NCBI RefSeq assembly: GCF_030818905.1
Contig: NZ_JAUTAZ010000001.1
Coordinates: forward strand, 1,984,001 to 2,048,000
Reading direction: 5' to 3'
Source: Microbacterium sp. SORGH_AS_0888
GTDB lineage: Bacteria; Actinomycetota; Actinomycetes; Actinomycetales; Microbacteriaceae
DNA length: 64,000 nt
Both the position numbers and the translations under genes were made by a program. This document shows positions 2,283 to 29,871 of this stretch, in pieces (position 1 is the first letter of the stretch; each line of letters begins with the position of its first letter). Under the pieces are notes generated by a model, which was given only the letters and a program-made list of their open reading frames with translations, was not told where the DNA came from and searched no databases.

Positions 2283-3720
2283 CGACGGCCTCCTCCTGGA
2301 TGAGCCGGCGGGCGACGCTCTCGGCGGTCGCGCGCCCCCAGCGCGACGTCGAGACCACGGCCAGCGCGAGGATGGCGACGGCGAAGCCGATGACCCAGCC
2401 CCACATGGCGTGCATCGCCTGCGGGAAGCCGGCGTCGACCCCCGTGACGGCCACTCCCGTCACGCTCCCCGCGAGCGCGACCCCGAGGCTCATGCCGACC
2501 TGCCGGCTCGTCGAGGCGATCGCACTCGCGGCCCCCGCCCGATCGCGCGGCATCCCGGACACGGCGGAGTTGGTGATGGGCGCGTTGATCATGCCGAAGC
2601 CGAATCCGAAGACCGTGATGATCGCGATGATCGCCGGGATGGGCGTGTCCGCGTCGATCAGCAGCATGAGCACGGCGCTCACGAGCAGCGCTGCGCCGGC
2701 CAGGAGCAGCGAGGGCCGCGCGCCCCAGCGCGCCACCGCCCGCCCGGACAGCGGGGAGCAGATCAGCATCGCGAGCGCGGGGGCGACCAGGACACATCCC
2801 GTGGCGAAGGCGCTGAGCCCGCGGACCTGCTGCAGGTAGAGCGAGAAGAGGAAGAGGAACGCGCCCCACGAGGCGAAGGCCGCCACGGCCACGAGGGTCG
2901 CCGCAGAGAAGGGGGCGCTGCCGAAGAAGCGCAGGTCGAGGAACGGGTGCTCGCGGCGGCGCTCCCAGGCGAGGAACGCGAGCAGGGCCACGAGCGCGAC
3001 GGCGAACACGAGAAGGGTCTGCGGCGCGGCCCAGCCGGCGACCGGTCCTTCGATGAGGCCGTACACGAGCCCCGCCAGCACGAGGATCGCGAGCACCTGG
3101 CCGAGCGGATCGAAGGCGCGCGCGGCGGCCGAACGCGACTCCGGCACGATGAGCGCCGTGAGCACGATCGCGAGGAGACAGATCGGCAGGTTGACCCAGA
3201 ACACGGCCCGCCAGTCGACCGCCTGGATGAGGATGCCGCCGACGATCGGCCCGAGCGCCATCGAGACGCCCACGATCGCCCCCCAGACCCCGATCGCGCG
3301 AGCCCGCTCGGCGGGCTTGACGAAGGCCTGAGTAATGATGGAGAGCGCGACGGGGTTCAGCATGGAGCCGCCGACGGCCTGGAGGGCGCGGGCGCCGATG
3401 AGCACCTCGATCGACGGGGCGAGGCTGCACAGCAGCGAGCCGAGCGCGAAGACGACCAGGCCGATCTGGAAGACGCGGCGCCGGCCCCACCGGTCGGCGC
3501 TCGCGCCGGCGAGGATCAGCAGGCTCGCGAGCACGAGCGTGTAGACGTCGACGATCCACTGCAGCTGCGAGACGCTGGCGCCGAGCGCCGAACGGATCGA
3601 CGGGAGGGCGACGTTGACGATCGTGGAGTCCATCGTCACGATGAACAGGCTCAGGCAGCAGGTGGCGAGGATGGCGACCTTGCGGCGGGCGCTCAGCTCG
3701 ACGGCATTAGTTGCGAACAC
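2272..3720 (-). CDS. DHA2-type MFS multidrug exporter (EmrB/QacA-like)
   Basis: A 14-helix drug:H+ antiporter of about 482 aa. Near the N-terminus VTMDSTIVNVALPSI is the classic DHA2 motif D1 in helix 1; WGRRRVFQIGL is motif A after helix 2; ALQAVGGSMLNPVAL is in helix 4. Hydrophobic segments continue to a VARRLIQEEAVDAR tail. The frame is open to a TTG at 3741, but that codon lies inside the inverted repeat. A GTG at 3720 has TACAAT exactly 6 nt upstream, so I prefer the GTG and a leaderless mRNA. The MarR gene follows with an 11-bp overlap. Substrate unknown. Confidence 0.88.
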   Translation of the reverse strand: MFATNAVELSARRKVAILATCCLSLFIVTMDSTIVNVALPSIRSALGASVSQLQWIVDVYTLVLASLLILAGASADRWGRRRVFQIGLVVFALGSLLCSLAPSIEVLIGARALQAVGGSMLNPVALSIITQAFVKPAERARAIGVWGAIVGVSMALGPIVGGILIQAVDWRAVFWVNLPICLLAIVLTALIVPESRSAAARAFDPLGQVLAILVLAGLVYGLIEGPVAGWAAPQTLLVFAVALVALLAFLAWERRREHPFLDLRFFGSAPFSAATLVAVAAFASWGAFLFLFSLYLQQVRGLSAFATGCVLVAPALAMLICSPLSGRAVARWGARPSLLLAGAALLVSAVLMLLIDADTPIPAIIAIITVFGFGFGMINAPITNSAVSGMPRDRAGAASAIASTSRQVGMSLGVALAGSVTGVAVTGVDAGFPQAMHAMWGWVIGFAVAILALAVVSTSRWGRATAESVARRLIQEEAVDAR

Positions 3721-3725
3721 GCAAA

Positions 3726-3743
3726 GATTGTAGATCCACAATC
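3726..3743 (-). promoter_or_regulatory. Operator-like inverted repeat over the exporter/MarR promoter
   Basis: GATTGT-agatcc-ACAATC is a perfect 6-bp inverted repeat with 6-bp spacer, flanked by A/T tracts. On the minus strand its distal part contains TACAAT, a good -10, placed 6 nt before the GTG at 3720. A repressor bound here would block RNA polymerase directly. The size and symmetry suit a MarR dimer, so autoregulation by the adjacent MarR is the simple reading (inference). Confidence 0.6.
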
Positions 3744-3885
3744 ATTTTCGCGCGACCGTTCTGCGGGGATTCTCCCCGACACGCCGAGCGGCACCGGTCG
3801 ACGACGGCGCGTCGCACACGATCCCCGCCGTTGCGGACGGGCGGCCGAGGCGGGGTCGGCACGGGCGGAGCCGGGATGCCGCGGC

Positions 3886-4329
3886 TCACTCGGCGGGCGG
3901 GATCTCCCGGCGGGGCCGCCACACCACGACATCCGTCGCCCGACGCACGCGAGTGCCCGAGCGCAGCGTCACGACGGCGCCCGTCGCCCCGGCGGCGAAC
4001 ACGCGGGCGCCGGGCCGGCGGTCGAGCTCCTCGCGCATGCGGGCCTCGAGGTCCTGCACCCGGCCGTGGAGCTCCCGCACCCGGTTCTCCAGCTCGATGA
4101 TGCGCGCGATCGCTGGCAGGCTCATGCCGTCCGCGGAGAGCCGGCTCACCTCGCGCAGCTGCGCGATGTCGTGCACCGAGTAGCGGCGCGACCCGCCCTT
4201 GGTGCGGGCGGGCACGACGAGGCCGAGGCGATCGTACTGGCGCAGCGTCTGCGCGTGCATGCCCGACAGCTCCGCCGCCACCTGGATCGCGAAGATCGGC
4301 GCATCCTCGTCGACCGTGTCATCGCTCAC
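3886..4329 (-). CDS. hspR: Heat-shock repressor HspR (MerR family)
   Basis: A 147-aa MerR-type repressor. IFAIQVAAELSGMHAQTLRQYDRLGLVVPARTKGGSRRYSVHDIAQLREV is the DNA-binding domain with the ARTKGGSRRYS wing typical of HspR, followed by a coiled-coil ELENRVRELHGRVQDLEARM. In actinobacteria HspR binds HAIR elements with DnaK as co-repressor. Start: a GTG at 4329 with AAGGAGGGGG 6 nt upstream; the frame stays open to 4374 but the extra residues are not conserved. It is last in dnaK-grpE-dnaJ-hspR, giving a negative feedback loop on the operon. Confidence 0.92.
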   Translation of the reverse strand: MSDDTVDEDAPIFAIQVAAELSGMHAQTLRQYDRLGLVVPARTKGGSRRYSVHDIAQLREVSRLSADGMSLPAIARIIELENRVRELHGRVQDLEARMREELDRRPGARVFAAGATGAVVTLRSGTRVRRATDVVVWRPRREIPPAE

Positions 4330-25157: not shown

Positions 25158-25822
25158 TCAGGTCGTGAGCCGGGGCAGGTGCCAGTCGAACACGATCGCG
25201 AGCGTACGCAGCGCGAACGCCGCGGCGAACCCGGCCAGCAGAGCCAGACCGCGAGCGCGGGTCCAGCGCAAGAGGATCCCCGTGGTGAGCGCGCCGGCGA
25301 GCGCCGCCGTGCCGTAGACGCTCTGCGTCAGCACGAAGGGCAGCCGGTCCAGGACGACATCCCGCACCAGCCCGCCGCCCGTGGCGGTCACCGTGCCGAG
25401 TGCCGTGACGACCCAGAGGTTGGCGCCGCGCGCGGCGGCCTTCTCGGCGCCGCCCACGGCGAACAGCGCGAGCCCCACGGCGTCCGCGGTCGCGAGCGCG
25501 AGCGTCGGGATGTCATCGATCGTCGCGACGACGCCGAAGGTGAGCAGGGATGCGCCGAGGGCGACGATGATCCGGATGCGCGACGAGAACGCCGCGGGCG
25601 GCAGGTCGCCCAGCAGCACGTCACGGAGGATGCCGCCGGCCAGGGCGACGAGGAAGCCGACGACCAGCACGCCCAGGAGGTCGAGACCCGCATGAGCCGC
25701 CGCTGCCGCGCCCTCGACGGCGAACAGACCCGTCGCCACGATGTCGAGGGTGTCGAAAGACGGGCGCTGATCACGGGCCGTCGGAGGCCGTCCGGAGCGC
25801 GATCCGCGTCGTTCACGTGCAC
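25158..25822 (-). CDS. TRIC/UPF0126-type channel protein, 5' end uncertain (possible frameshift)
   Basis: The body from about 25750 down to 25158 encodes ~200 residues of the trimeric intracellular cation channel-like family: two repeats, each with a GGGxxRD motif (ALAGGILRDVLLGDLPP and TATGGGLVRDVVLDRLPF), and six to seven helices. No ATG, GTG or TTG lies at a sensible place in this frame; the next start upstream is 26030. In the neighbouring frame GTG 25822/25816 gives VHVNDADRAPDGLRRPVISARL, and one missing base in the AAA run at 25756-25758 would join it smoothly to FDTLDIVATG. I therefore extend the feature to 25822 and flag a frameshift or assembly error. Confidence 0.65.
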
Positions 25823-26051
25823 AGCTGAGTCTATGAGGCCGCGACGTCGCCGACGCATGTTCGGGCCGAGCTCGCCGTGTCGCTTGGCGCGGTTGACCCG
25901 CTGGGACGCGGTGGCGCCGGAGACGCGCCTCTCCGCTGCCACCTGCGCGATCGCGCGGGTGGCAGCGTCCGATCAGTCGGCGGCGCCCCTCGGGTGAGAG
26001 CGCAGCGTCGGCAGGGACGGGTGAGGACATGATCCGCTCTTCGGGTCGGAG

Positions 26052-27170
26052 TCAGATCAGTTCCATCACCGGCCCTTCGTGCACCGCCCGGTAGATCGCG
26101 TTGCGGATCGCATTGGCTTGGTCCGAGGTGAGGGTGCGGTCGATCGGTCGCAGGACGATGCGCAGCAGGAGATTGACCTGTCCGTCCTGTGTTCCGAGCC
26201 GGATGCGCGCGGCGTCGGGAAGTTCCTCGTGCGCGGTGCGGCTGAGCACCTCAACCGACTCGATGACCTCGGCGTCGTCGCCGAGCGCGGTGCGGATACG
26301 GTCGCCCAGGGTCTCCTCGTCCTCATCGGCGGCCAGCACGACGGAGACGTCACGCCGAGACGCCGGCAAGGGCGAGATGTCTTGCCACGGCTCCAAGGTG
26401 AGCATCTGGGAGGCGATGCGCTGGTCCTCTGCGCGGAGGTAGCGGATGTCCGGGATGCCCTTGCGCAGCATCAGCGCCCGTTCCAAGCCCATCCCGAGCG
26501 CCAGACCCGACCACTTCTCCGGGTCGAGACCCGATCCGCGAAGCACGTCGGGGTGGATGCGACCGCACTCGGCCAGTTCGAGCCACTCGCCGTCGTGCAG
26601 CACGTCGATCTGCCGGCCGCCGACGGTGTAAGGGTGCGTGACGTCGGTCACGGTCCATTCCGCGCCGGGAAGCACCGCCTCGACCAGCCGGCCGATCATC
26701 GTGAGCATGTCGGTGTCGTCGGTGTCCGGGGTGCTGCGGATGCGCCACAGATCGACCTGGTGCGGCTCGCCCACGTGGCTGCGATCGACCGCGTCCCGGC
26801 GGTAGACGAGGCCGGGCGCCACGATCAGCTCATCGACGCCGGCTTGTCCCGCATAGTCTTCGAGTGCGGTGGGCAGTTCGGCGCTGGTGTGGCTGCGCAA
26901 CATCACCGTCGGGCTGATGTATCGGGTGTACCGGCGATTCCTGGTGACGTCGCCAGGGGCGTAGCCGAGGCGATCGTAGTTCTCTCGCACGGGCACGATC
27001 GGCGTGTTCCGCACGAAGCGGACCGTGCTGCCCCACTCGGTCTCCAAGGTGGTCACCACCGAGTCCAGAAGCACCTGGATCGCGTGCTCGCCTTGTTCGG
27101 GATCGGTGAGGTCGCGCATGTTCAGCGCGCGGCAGAGCTGGTCAGAGGTCAGATAGTCGTGATACGACAC
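26052..27170 (-). CDS. PheS-related class II ligase with FDX-ACB domain (SrmL-like, role unknown)
   Basis: A 372-aa paralogue of phenylalanyl-tRNA synthetase. The catalytic core has motif 2 in GLVYRRDAVDRSHVGEPHQVDLWRI (PheS has ATHSPEFHQ here) and motif 3 in GLALGMGLERALMLRKGIPDIRYLRAEDQRI. The C-terminal ~95 residues (SRRDVSVVLAADEDEETLGDRIRTALG...VNLLLRIVLRP) are a ferredoxin-fold anticodon-binding domain normally found on PheT, so one chain holds both, as in mitochondrial PheRS. I recall a family called PheS-related mystery ligase SrmL with this layout; its substrate is unknown. Start is GTG 27170, with GGGAG 9 nt upstream inside a leader hairpin; the frame is open to 27278 but unconserved. 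Confidence 0.78.
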   Translation of the reverse strand: MSYHDYLTSDQLCRALNMRDLTDPEQGEHAIQVLLDSVVTTLETEWGSTVRFVRNTPIVPVRENYDRLGYAPGDVTRNRRYTRYISPTVMLRSHTSAELPTALEDYAGQAGVDELIVAPGLVYRRDAVDRSHVGEPHQVDLWRIRSTPDTDDTDMLTMIGRLVEAVLPGAEWTVTDVTHPYTVGGRQIDVLHDGEWLELAECGRIHPDVLRGSGLDPEKWSGLALGMGLERALMLRKGIPDIRYLRAEDQRIASQMLTLEPWQDISPLPASRRDVSVVLAADEDEETLGDRIRTALGDDAEVIESVEVLSRTAHEELPDAARIRLGTQDGQVNLLLRIVLRPIDRTLTSDQANAIRNAIYRAVHEGPVMELI

Positions 27171-27175
27171 GGGGC

Positions 27176-27240
27176 GGTCTCCCAAACGGTTGCAGGCCAA
27201 CGAAGAAGGTGGACTTCCCCCGGCCGTACCTGCGGAGACC
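27176..27240 (-). ncRNA. Leader hairpin that covers the ligase ribosome binding site
   Basis: On the minus strand GGTCTCC (27240-27234) pairs with GGAGACC (27182-27176). Inside, GCAGG pairs with CCTGC and GAAG with CTTC around a 5-nt loop, with a 9-nt single-stranded bulge on the 3' side. The closing stem ends 5 nt before the GTG start and buries the only GGGAG ribosome binding site. This layout suits a translational switch. It has no T-box core and no T arm, so it is neither a T-box nor a tRNA. Confidence 0.5.
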
Positions 27241-27264
27241 TGTGCGCTATCGGCGCGCGTCGAC

Positions 27265-27294
27265 GACCCCGCGGCCATAACCCGGCCGGGGGTC
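27265..27294 (-). promoter_or_regulatory. Second leader hairpin upstream of the PheS-like ligase
   Basis: GACCCC-G-CGGCC-ATAACCC-GGCCG-GGGGTC is an 11-bp stem with a single bulged G and a 7-nt loop. It lies 24 nt before the first leader hairpin in the direction of transcription. It could be an attenuator, or a terminator of the upstream O-demethylase transcript, but there is no T tract. The remaining bases from 27295 to 27482 show nothing further that I can interpret. Confidence 0.4.
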
Positions 27295-27482
27295 CCGAAA
27301 TCGCTGCTGCCTCAGCACGGCACAAGAGTACACGCGCAACCGCTCGCGAACGCCCGTCCTCACCGACCTCTGGCCGGCGACGGCGGCGGAGCGCCGGGAG
27401 CGAGGGGCCGGGACACGGCCGGTCCCCCGCTCCCGCACCGCCGCGGGGCGCGACGGCGCACGACGACGCCGCCCCGCGCGGA

Positions 27483-28856
27483 TCAGTCGGCGCGGTAGAC
27501 CGTCCGCGCCTCGACCGCGAGGGGCGCGGGCTGCACGGTCGCCCGGATCCGCACCTGCACGTGGTCCTCGACCTGAGCCTTGGACGAGGGGGTGTCCTCG
27601 CCCCAGACGACCACGACCTCGGTTCCCGGCGTCGCGGAGGCGGCGTCCACCACCGCGAGCGACAGCATCGAGCGCTCGTTGGCGGAGTACCCGGTCCAGG
27701 TCGAGACGCCGATCCGCGCGCCGTCCACCTCGACCCGGTCGTAGTGGAACGTGTCGTAGAGCGCCATGGGCTCGTTGAAGTGCTTCGCGCCCTTGCCGGG
27801 CAGGTACTTCGAGCCCGCCGCAGCGGCGGTGTCCTCGCCGTTCCACACGAGCGTCACCTTCTTGTGCGCGGTGGAGCGGCCGTCCGCGACCATCCGCTCG
27901 AGCGCCTCGCGGCCGATGAAGTCGTGATCGAACGCCACGAGACGGCCGTAGTCGAGGTCGTAGGGGGTGAGGTAGTAGTCCGCGATGTCATCGGAGAAGA
28001 ACGAGCCCCCCAGCGGCGACGTCGTCTCGTACGCGTTCTCCGAGAGCCAGCGACGGTAGGGCGCGAGACGCTCGTCCGTGTAGATCGCCGGAAGCGGGCG
28101 CGGGAGCCATCCGGACTCGAGCGCGTTCGTGTGGTACGCGCGTCCGCCCACCTGCGTGAGGCCGAACTCGGCACCGGCGGCCAGCAGAGCGCCGTGCACG
28201 GCATCGTTGTCCTCCCACGGACCCCACAGCTCGAAGCCGGGCTCCCCCGCCATCCCGTGGCGCAGCGCCCGCACCTCCCTGCCGCCGATCGTGAAGCGGG
28301 TCATGTGGAAGAACTTCAGGTGCGGCGGCTCCTCGCCGGTCGCCGCGCGGATGACCTCCATCGCGCCAGGTCCCTGCACCTGATAGCGGTAGACGACCGG
28401 GTCGCCCGCGCGGTAGAGGGAGTTGTCGTCCCGCCACACCTCGACGTCGTAGTCGCCGGTGACCGCGTGGTAGTGCATCCAGTTGATGGACGGCGGGATG
28501 CCGACGGCCTGGTACTCGTCCTCCTCCAGGTGGAAGAGGATGTTGTCGCCGATGACGTAGCCGTCGTGGTTGACCGCGACGAACTGCTTGGCCATGTCGA
28601 CCGGGAAACGGGCGACGCTGTTGATCGCGAGGTCGCTGATCAGCCGGAGCGCGTCCGGGCCCTTGATGTTGAGGTCGGCCATGTGGTGCGACTGGTCGTA
28701 CAGCACGGCGGTGCGCCGCCAGGCCAGCTGCTCGTCGCGCCAGTTCGTGAACTCGGGCACGACGCGCGGCACGACGGCGGGAGGGCTCTGCGACTCCCAC
28801 AGCAGCGTGTGCGGACCGCCCGCCTCGGCGATCGCCTCTTCGAGATTCTTCGGCAC
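27483..28856 (-). CDS. GcvT-family tetrahydrofolate O-demethylase (LigM/DesA-like)
   Basis: A 457-aa protein of the glycine-cleavage T fold. LLWESQSPPAVVPRVVPEFTNWRDEQLAWRRTAVLYDQSHHMADLNIKGPDAL is the N-terminal part as found in vanillate/3-O-methylgallate (LigM) and syringate (DesA) O-demethylases, which move the methoxy methyl to tetrahydrofolate. GEPGFELWGPWEDNDAVHGALLAAGAEFGLTQVGGRAYHTNALESGWLP is the folate-binding core. The GTG at 28856 has AAGGAGG at ideal spacing. The divergent LysR gene probably controls it. The exact methoxy-aromatic substrate is not known. Confidence 0.8.
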   Translation of the reverse strand: MPKNLEEAIAEAGGPHTLLWESQSPPAVVPRVVPEFTNWRDEQLAWRRTAVLYDQSHHMADLNIKGPDALRLISDLAINSVARFPVDMAKQFVAVNHDGYVIGDNILFHLEEDEYQAVGIPPSINWMHYHAVTGDYDVEVWRDDNSLYRAGDPVVYRYQVQGPGAMEVIRAATGEEPPHLKFFHMTRFTIGGREVRALRHGMAGEPGFELWGPWEDNDAVHGALLAAGAEFGLTQVGGRAYHTNALESGWLPRPLPAIYTDERLAPYRRWLSENAYETTSPLGGSFFSDDIADYYLTPYDLDYGRLVAFDHDFIGREALERMVADGRSTAHKKVTLVWNGEDTAAAAGSKYLPGKGAKHFNEPMALYDTFHYDRVEVDGARIGVSTWTGYSANERSMLSLAVVDAASATPGTEVVVVWGEDTPSSKAQVEDHVQVRIRATVQPAPLAVEARTVYRAD

Positions 28857-28974: not shown

Positions 28975-29871
28975 GTGGACTTCACGCTGCGCCAGCTCCA
29001 GTACTTCGACGCTGTCGCCTCGGCGGGCTCGCTCAGCGCCGCCGCCGCGCAGACGCACGTGACGCCCTCGGCGCTGACGCTGGCCATCGACGAGCTGGAG
29101 CGCCACCTCGGCGTCCAGCTGCTCATCCGCCGCAAAGGCCGCGGCGTCGCGCTCACGGCCGTGGGATCGCAGCTGCTCGCCCGGGCGCGGGCCATCCTGG
29201 CGAGCGCGGAAGGCCTGGCCGACGAGGCGTCCGCGACCGGCTCCTCCCTCATCGGACGCTTCGCCGTTGGCTGCTTCACCACCCTCGCGCCCTTCGTCGT
29301 CCCGGGCTTCGCCGAGAGCTTCCGGCACGCACACCCCGGGTTGACGCTCGAGCTGAGCACGGGCACGGCCGCCGAGATCCAGGAATCCCTCCTGCAGGGC
29401 CGCATCGACGCGGGCGTCCTCTACAGCCTCGACGTCCCCGCCTCGCTCACCTTCGAGGCCGTGCGAGAGCATCGGCCCTACGTGCTCGTGGCGGCGGATC
29501 ACCGCCTGGCCGCACGCACGTCCGTCTCGCTCCACGAGCTGACCGACGACACGCTCATCGCCCTCGACGTCCCGCCGACGCATCGCAACACCGAGAACAT
29601 GCTCGCGGCGCTCGGCATCGCGCCGCGGATCGGGCGCACCTCGGCGAGCTTCGAGGCCGTGCGCTGCATGGTGGGCTTCGGCCAGGGGTACGCCATCCTC
29701 TTCCAGCGGCCCGCGACATCCCAGACCTACGACGGGCACGAGGTGCGGACGCTGGAGATCGAGGATGCCGTGGCCCCGGCGGTCGTCGGGCTCTGTCGTG
29801 CCGCGGGCGCGCCGATCACCTCGCGCTACCGGGCGCTGCGGTCGCTGCTCGCGGGCGAGGACGTGGCGTAG
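28975..29871 (+). CDS. LysR-family regulator divergent from the O-demethylase
   Basis: A 298-aa LysR protein. Residues 1-62 are the winged helix (FTLRQLQYFDAVASAGSLSAAAAQTHVTPSALTLAIDELERHLGVQLLIRRKGRGVALT). The effector domain follows with GRFAVGCFTTLAPFVVPGF and a second lobe around SFEAVRCMVGFGQGYAILFQRP. Start is GTG 28975, with no clear ribosome site and a TAACAT box just upstream, so it may be leaderless. It likely activates the divergent O-demethylase in response to a methoxylated aromatic acid (inference). Confidence 0.88.
   Translation: MDFTLRQLQYFDAVASAGSLSAAAAQTHVTPSALTLAIDELERHLGVQLLIRRKGRGVALTAVGSQLLARARAILASAEGLADEASATGSSLIGRFAVGCFTTLAPFVVPGFAESFRHAHPGLTLELSTGTAAEIQESLLQGRIDAGVLYSLDVPASLTFEAVREHRPYVLVAADHRLAARTSVSLHELTDDTLIALDVPPTHRNTENMLAALGIAPRIGRTSASFEAVRCMVGFGQGYAILFQRPATSQTYDGHEVRTLEIEDAVAPAVVGLCRAAGAPITSRYRALRSLLAGEDVA

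Follow-up and report, generated by a model that had tools for sequence, protein, structure and literature searches.

The phenylalanyl-tRNA synthetase (PheRS) of human mitochondria is a single chain in which a class II phenylalanine core is followed by an FDX-ACB domain, and a 2010 review, in the passages cited here, calls the single-chain PheRS described from mitochondria the only known monomeric class II synthetase (PMC3275996). Second aminoacyl-tRNA synthetases (aaRSs) that resist indolmycin, mupirocin and albomycin are established, and the review cited for such resistance synthetases nowhere uses the word PheRS (PMC9437257). Here we describe srmL, a gene within a stretch of 64,000 nucleotides from Microbacterium sp. 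SORGH_AS_0888 (contig NZ_JAUTAZ010000001.1, positions 1,984,001 to 2,048,000; hereafter the window), whose product has the same order of domains in one chain. On the sequence evidence presented below, srmL probably encodes an inducible auxiliary PheRS of the single-chain, mitochondrial type that is spread by a transposon and controlled by a Phe-tRNA attenuator, with a likely benefit of the resistance type; of this reading, the part on resistance is held with less confidence. SrmL differs from the human mitochondrial enzyme in being encoded by bacteria, phages and plasmids, in its motif 2 (PHQ.D.W), and in having His and Tyr for pocket Phe residues and Glu for a Gly.

Other described systems share further parts of this arrangement. 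The indolmycin-resistant TrpRS1 of Streptomyces coelicolor is likewise a second, diverged and inducible aaRS beside a housekeeping one, according to the cited part of the same review (PMC9437257). It is a different synthetase, however, and in srmL leaders of the window type it is the ribosome site that is controlled. We know of no account of TrpRS1 as a transposon passenger, and its attenuation by leader-peptide control was reportedly described by Vecchione and Sello in 2010. The gammaproteobacterial attenuators of pheST and pheA, with their PheM and PheL leader peptides, resemble the srmL leader in combining a leader peptide that contains Phe codons with competing hairpins. In contrast to these, most srmL leaders have one Phe codon, their upstream open reading frame (uORF) is probably leaderless, and the ribosome site is buried in the insertion sequence (IS)-type group of leaders. 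For Actinobacteria, a 2005 survey, in the part cited here, reported no Phe operon under RNA control (PMC1262725).

The srmL gene (26052..27170, minus strand) is a frame of 372 aa that runs from a GTG at 27170 to a stop at 26052. Its product scored 523.7 bits against the NCBIfam model NF051887.1 ("PheS-related mystery ligase SrmL", cut-off 300), a family whose name gives no function. All ten SrmL proteins scanned exceeded this cut-off, with 416-443 bits for those of five giant phages and 515 bits for that of Azotobacter. The class II core PF01409 was found in the window protein with 102 bits, and the FDX-ACB domain PF03147 scored 27.1 bits, under the Pfam cut-off of 31.1 that the Azotobacter orthologue passes (36.3 bits). 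An initial annotation of this DNA, made by a model from the letters alone, had proposed membership of the SrmL family, a PheS core joined to FDX-ACB in one chain, and an altered motif 2, all of which hold. Motif 2 reads GEPHQVDLW in the window protein, and its positions P136, H137, Q138, D140 and W142 are invariant in an alignment of 13 diverse relatives, as are the FDX-ACB residues R273, D274, R341, T346 and N353. R124, Q138 and A224, which we take to align with active-site residues of PheRS, are invariant as well (13/13 for A224), and A224 presumably corresponds to Ala314 of Thermus PheRS. Two other models did not reach their cut-offs: the window protein scored 88 bits with the bacterial PheRS alpha model TIGR00468 (cut-off 237.45) and 121.3 bits with the mitochondrial-type single-chain PheRS model TIGR00469 (cut-off 258.35), whose architecture is similar. 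The top PDB match of a 13-sequence SrmL profile was human mitochondrial PheRS (5mgu, 1.4e-34); for the window protein alone, bacterial PheS was marginally ahead (6p8t, 1.5e-21) of mitochondrial PheRS (3e-21). Comparison of 13 intact copies in 78 pairs gave a mean dN/dS of about 0.13, so the gene is under purifying selection.

Mapping of the PheRS pocket onto SrmL by alignment places H179, Y181 and T182 at the positions of F258, F260 and V261, and the invariant H179, Y181, E201 and D140 occupy positions that are Phe, Phe, Gly and Glu in PheS. The cited passages of the 2010 review give Asn and Tyr for the two ring-stacking Phe positions in the human cytosolic enzyme, and Thr for that of Val261 in mitochondrial PheRS (PMC3275996). 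Because genuine PheRSs differ at these changed positions too, Phe specificity of SrmL is possible. A PADLOC scan of the window protein for anti-phage defence gave no match, and we rejected a defence role on this ground. Searches of the literature on SrmL, on PheRS self-resistance, and on PheRS inhibitors and actinomycetes brought up nothing on the SrmL family among the matches listed.

The leader of srmL, also on the minus strand, has an anatomy that looks like attenuation sensing uncharged tRNA-Phe. It contains a uORF of 23 codons (27247..27318, GTG to TAG; MLRQQRFRDPRPGYGRGVVDARR), probably translated from a leaderless transcript. The uORF starts 6 nt past a candidate promoter, the -10-like TACTCT at 27325..27330, which resembles the -10 consensus TAnnnT; a consensus scan of 27100-27450 found no sigma-70 promoter or terminator. 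It then runs through hairpin 1 (27265..27294, pairing 1:2) and ends 6 nt ahead of hairpin 2 (27176..27240, pairing 3:4), which stops 5 nt ahead of the srmL GTG and carries the ribosome site GGGAG (27179..27183) in arm 4. Codon 7, the putative regulatory Phe codon UUU (27298..27300), lies six bases 5' of the CCC arm of stem 1.

Both leader hairpins are real. The folding of 27150-27340 beats that of shuffled sequences (z -2.2, equalled by 2/200), and across 22 related IS-type leaders 93.7% of the cells in the two hairpins are standard pairs. Changes on both sides of a pair were found in 5 of the 23 hairpin pairs, in 11 cells; none of 500 shuffles reached the number of cells, while 25 of 500 reached the number of pairs. 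The count of further pair types, which 363/500 shuffles equalled, gives the stems no support. Sliding the stem partners lowers pairing to 34-50%, and RNAalifold independently recovers both stems, with a double change in 6/34 pairs. The initial annotation had drawn these two hairpins at the same positions, with GGGAG inside the second, had named compensatory change in relatives as the way to check them, and had read them as a regulated, possibly tRNA-responsive leader that hides the ribosome site; the leader analysis agrees with it on each of these points. The uORF that crosses hairpin 1 had escaped that annotation.

The layout of the uORF is kept far beyond the window. In 63 of 65 srmL leader rows (47 distinct sequences), Phe stands at codon 5-8 and the CCC arm of stem 1 follows after six bases; the search pattern for leaders required a Phe codon, so that its presence in 47/47 is by construction and 63/65 is the fair figure. 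The 65 rows are separate from L035 and L083 (added later), from L009, L082, L084, L134, L135 and the partial G583, and from the phage loci L151-L154. Of the two rows that do not fit, L068 retains the frame without its ATG/GTG start, and that of the giant phage LR745206 (MNTNTTFNFFFSHKMV) is a separate Phe-rich leader (FNFFF) with a U-tailed terminator behind it. The leaders of L083 and of L035 (48% identical, from another family; leader peptide MAASQRRRFPCPPVVRGVERRSR), which had initially been left out, both fit the Phe layout. The codon is TTT in 46 of the 47 distinct leaders and TTC in one, and among shuffled frames Phe at that codon has a P of 0.012 and Phe anywhere a P of 0.24. In IS-type leaders neither the TTT (22/22 aligned) nor the PR-encoding arm varies. 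In families f91, f89 and f80/Asanoa, in L035 and on the Azotobacter plasmid, the peptide is little conserved beyond Phe and what the RNA arm encodes; outside the IS-type clade Phe is preceded by R, W, L or T, and the LR745206 peptide has only Phe in common with other srmL leaders. The layout spans Actinobacteria to the Azotobacter plasmid. Of five Microbacterium genomes examined ahead of their canonical pheS, none has a frame of this layout; four lack any small Phe-containing frame there, and in one a frame of 29 codons contains one Phe, late in the frame.

A mechanism of the following kind would account for this anatomy. When Phe-tRNA(Phe) is plentiful, the ribosome would not pause in the 23-codon leader, 1:2 would form and 3:4 would bury the ribosome site, leaving srmL silent; in other lineages, a terminator-like stem would take the place of the hairpin that buries the ribosome site. 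When Phe-tRNA(Phe) is scarce, the ribosome would stall once UUU (codon 7) enters the A site, its front edge then lying over the 5' arm of stem 1. The freed strand 2 could then pair with the emerging strand 3, leaving the ribosome site open or the terminator blocked, after which SrmL would be made and charging restored. The likely benefit would be survival under inhibition of the housekeeping PheST, much as a second synthetase of the resistance type such as TrpRS1 provides.

The pairings that such a switch would use are conserved. The 2:3 pairing (GCGGGG with CUCCGC) has 99.2% standard cells in the 22 IS-type leaders, with one compensated change in one pair; it is mostly invariant, and 86/500 shuffles do equally well. 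The segment CGGCCGGGGG at 27217..27226 (minus strand) is a near-invariant complement of the 5' arm of stem 1, and the alternative pairing 1:4' that it could form has 98.2% of cells paired and hardly any variation, which is weak evidence. An exact 7-base complement of the arm lies downstream in 26/47 leaders, mostly of the IS type, and 1:4' was rejected as a general pairing on this count. With a stalled ribosome taken to cover to +12, nascent RNA reaching 8 nt past strand 3 formed 2:3 (4-6 bp) in 20/20 leaders, compared with 0/20 without the ribosome; for nascent RNA just short of the Shine-Dalgarno (SD) arm the figures were 18/20 and 4/20. For one leader, L079, the ribosome positions used in the folding were 1 nt (at Phe) and 7 nt (at the stop) away from those of its true frame. 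In the four terminator-like leaders (Azotobacter L133, Asanoa L080, phage L136, and L122), strand 3 was held by strand 2 in 4/4 when the ribosome stalled at Phe, and was off strand 2 in 4/4 when it stood at the stop codon. The Phe uORF is combined with terminator-like stems in some lineages, such as those of these four, and with a buried ribosome site in others, and the output of the srmL attenuator seems to have moved between transcription and translation across lineages.

The distribution of srmL is sparse and points to horizontal transfer. Full-length SrmL occurs in 4 of 119 congeneric genomes, that of the window included (G000, G110, G014 and G028), and pieces occur in three others (G007, G065 and G042), the remaining matches being ordinary PheS. 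In a phylum-wide set of 296 genomes, the window's own genome alone passed the SrmL cut-off, and G193 (48% identical) has a split copy; in a class-wide set of 394 genomes there were 26 matches at E<=1e-40, 21 of them in family f91. A scan of one genome per species, which finds close relatives only, gave 21 loci: 14 full copies, one distant full copy, one internally deleted, one frameshifted and four fragments. The fourteen full copies (76-87% identity) are from Labedella, Nocardia, Microbacterium, Nesterenkonia, Tessaracoccus, Brevibacterium, Sanguibacter, Rhodococcus, Actinotalea and a metagenome-assembled genome (MAG), and the distant one (50%) is from Asanoa. The window SrmL is 84% identical to the Nocardia copy and 80-84% to congeneric copies, whereas PheS identity, 83-84% among congeners, falls to 60% for a genome from a different family; this argues for horizontal transfer. 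DNA similarity to the window starts 120-190 nt upstream of the start codon and mostly ends at the stop codon (extending beyond it in L008, L070, L072 and L083), which indicates that leader and srmL travel as a single unit. There is no second SrmL in the window's genome, where the matches were SrmL itself and PheS. No neighbour is common to all 18 loci compared (15 G loci, L080, L133 and L136), and an operon partner was therefore rejected; the two commonest neighbour families occur in 9/18 loci, on the opposite strand and 1-8 kb off. Housekeeping PheS is over its cut-off in 19/19 genomes with srmL or its pieces, and PheT is over its cut-off in 18 of them and matches as three pieces in the 19th.

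The vehicle appears to be a transposon of the IS481 type, a kind to which the cmx transposon Tn5564 belongs, and the window copy of srmL may be a passenger retained after its decay. The transposon is complete in Nesterenkonia sedimenti (L070), where srmL is followed after 17 bp by the start of an intact IS481-family transposase of 336 aa (295 bits; cut-off 224). The terminal repeats of L070 and L072 open with CTAG.TGT and have GGCCA.GA.GTT.T.GACG in common, and the two loci have six-base target duplications of the NCTAGN type (ACTAGC/ACTAGC and TCTAGC/TCTAGC); the L072 transposase matches as two overlapping pieces and is probably broken. According to the cited part of its description, TnRErm46 of Rhodococcus equi, which carries erm(46), belongs to the IS481 family and has NCTAGN duplications and the repeat TGTTGCGGGTCATGACGTTG; L070 and L072 resemble it in transposase, CTAG target, repeat (TGT...CATGACGTTG) and a putative resistance passenger (PMC6794481). 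The srmL element differs from TnRErm46 and Tn5564 in that its passenger is a PheRS-like ligase, and it is only about 2.4 kb in size. The left inverted repeat is not visible in most other srmL loci, so transposition is demonstrated for L070 and L072 only. In the window, a remnant of the N-terminus of an IS481-type transposase (aa 1-23 and 26-56, in two frames) lies at 25865..26030 (minus strand), the position of the intact transposase in L070, and 27366..27384 is a possible, weak match to a degenerate left inverted repeat (3/300 shuffles score as high). That srmL stands alone, as had been stated from the letters, fits the decayed window copy and does not carry over to the gene in general, which is probably a transposon passenger. 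A full copy of srmL on a Glutamicibacter plasmid adjoins the gene for the Cmx chloramphenicol exporter, and pieces on two Corynebacterium plasmids adjoin erm(X) and tet(65). Among the 20 records listed of 31 matching plasmid records, these three and that of Azotobacter are SrmL, and the other 16 are matches of 29-35%, PheS where annotated.

Some features around these elements can be recorded here. The window frame 25158-26030 (minus strand, 290 aa) fuses the start of the transposase remnant to a Gly_transporter-domain protein (PF03458), whose own start is probably further inside. Elsewhere in the same genome (G000:C1:788141-789141) is a 75% identical IS481-type transposase, in two pieces and with no srmL passenger visible. 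Upstream of srmL, 27483-28838 (minus strand) encodes a LigM/DesA-like aromatic O-demethylase (607 bits with the DesA model, cut-off 800), and the next gene, 28975-29871 (plus strand), encodes a LysR-type regulator.

Giant phages also encode SrmL. A search of viral contigs with the SrmL alignment A2 found four phages (L151-L154; 415-578 kb) with SrmL over the cut-off, where searches with the window SrmL alone or with a phage protein found none; LR745206 (635 kb) is the fifth. The srmL gene of L152 is flanked by two tRNA-Phe(GAA) genes, and in L154 a tRNA-Phe gene lies two genes upstream, in a tRNA array. In L151, the frame directly before srmL is HisRS-like but, at 211 aa, shorter than HisRS, and SerRS lies 1.6 kb upstream. 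Given the leader Phe codon, these neighbours in three of the five phages (tRNA-Phe in two, HisRS-like in one) and the mitochondrial-PheRS-like architecture, SrmL would aminoacylate tRNA-Phe and is probably a translational ligase, contrary to the non-translational role suggested in the initial annotation. The L151 region 154-2995 comprises SerRS, a receiver-like frame and the HisRS-like frame ahead of SrmL, and three tRNA-Glu genes lie downstream. On the 517-kb contig of L153, srmL starts at the stop of a polynucleotide-kinase-like gene (1901-2998 and 2998-4152; PHROG polynucleotide kinase), an adjacency that suggests a link with tRNA repair. LR745206 has 60 tRNA matches over the cut-off, with two tRNA-Phe genes among the 30 tRNA stretches read, neither of them within 6 kb of srmL. 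PheS was over its cut-off in none of the five giant-phage records, which are possibly incomplete.

Several other explanations have to be weighed against an auxiliary PheRS. SrmL might attach another or a modified amino acid to tRNA-Phe or another tRNA, or use Phe non-ribosomally, with a leader that merely reports uncharged tRNA-Phe; we consider this unlikely, but it has some force from the invariant H179, Y181, E201 and D140 in place of the PheS residues and from the missed PheS cut-off of TIGR00468 (88 vs 237 bits). Against it, the invariant A224 presumably aligns with Ala314 of Thermus PheRS, which according to the cited passages of the 2010 review limits para substituents, and the same review has genuine PheRSs with Tyr and Thr at two of the altered sites (PMC3275996). 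It is rather improbable that SrmL instead adenylates or aminoacylates a toxic Phe-like or PheRS-inhibiting compound and charges no tRNA, while the leader responds to the harm that such a compound causes. A mobile passenger adjoining cmx, erm(X) and tet(65) would suit detoxification, and non-translational aaRS paralogues exist, as stated in the cited part of PMC9437257; but SrmL has kept FDX-ACB with its five invariant residues, and the giant-phage copies adjoin tRNA-Phe (L152 and L154) or aaRS genes (L151).

Two further possibilities concern the leader itself. The uORF could be a drug-sensing arrest peptide: translation would stall at RF..PR under an antibiotic that acts on the ribosome, and srmL would be induced in the manner of erm and cmx leaders. 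Inducible resistance genes do have this general layout, and the TTT and the PR-encoding arm are invariant in IS-type leaders; we nevertheless judge an arrest peptide very unlikely, as R, W, L or T precedes Phe in other clades, where only Phe and the RNA-arm residues are kept, and the phage leader has only Phe in common. A ligand-binding riboswitch or a T-box, the former having been raised from the letters, would agree with conserved, covarying hairpins over the ribosome site. It was rejected and has at most a slim chance: no Rfam match was found in the window leader at E<=5 or in the leaders of L080, L133, L136 and L148 at E<=0.5, and a translated frame crosses hairpin 1 and accounts for the leader parts.

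A number of observations count against an attenuator-controlled auxiliary PheRS with a resistance benefit. H179 for Phe and E201 for Gly are without explanation, as is D140 for Glu, and the enzyme could have another substrate. One Phe codon alone makes a weak sensor, and, contrary to prediction, the Phe leader was found in 0/4 of the phage genes of L151-L154; in L153, moreover, no tRNA lies near srmL and no aaRS neighbour was present among the open reading frames seen. The footprint of the stalled ribosome is an assumption, and at equilibrium the full leader stalled at Phe has a closed ribosome site (mean P unpaired 0.02, compared with 0.03 in the free leader and 0.17 when the ribosome stands at the stop codon of the uORF; 20/21 IS-type leaders scored). 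The full stalled leader favours 3:4 over 2:3 by 0.5-8.7 kcal/mol in 18/20, 2:3 being narrowly ahead in two, the window included, and in the four terminator leaders the terminator stem likewise prevails at equilibrium when stalled (P 0.88-1.00). A simple equilibrium SD switch was rejected because equilibrium folding does not reproduce it, so that only a kinetic, co-transcriptional switch would work; textbook attenuators rely on kinetic folding. Finally, srmL is core in family f91 (21/22 genomes, 20/20 good ones), which is unexpected for a pure resistance gene and for which a backup role and resident resistance are equally possible, and we know of no natural antibiotic that targets PheRS.

If the auxiliary PheRS is what we propose, a "mystery ligase" family becomes a testable claim: a one-chain PheRS with its own sensor of Phe-tRNA in bacteria, plasmids and giant phages. 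Such a monomeric bacterial PheRS would also serve as a tool enzyme. A bolder version, which we hold only tentatively, is that srmL represents an undescribed class of transposable resistance, a drug-insensitive single-chain PheRS induced through its attenuator, whose presence across environmental and clinical Actinobacteria would reveal an unknown natural antibiotic against PheRS; giant phages would use the enzyme to charge their own tRNA-Phe. Should the benefit indeed be resistance, PheRS would be a natural antibiotic target for which a mobile resistance gene is already to be found next to erm(X), tet(65) and cmx, and a search for the organism that makes the inhibitor would become possible.

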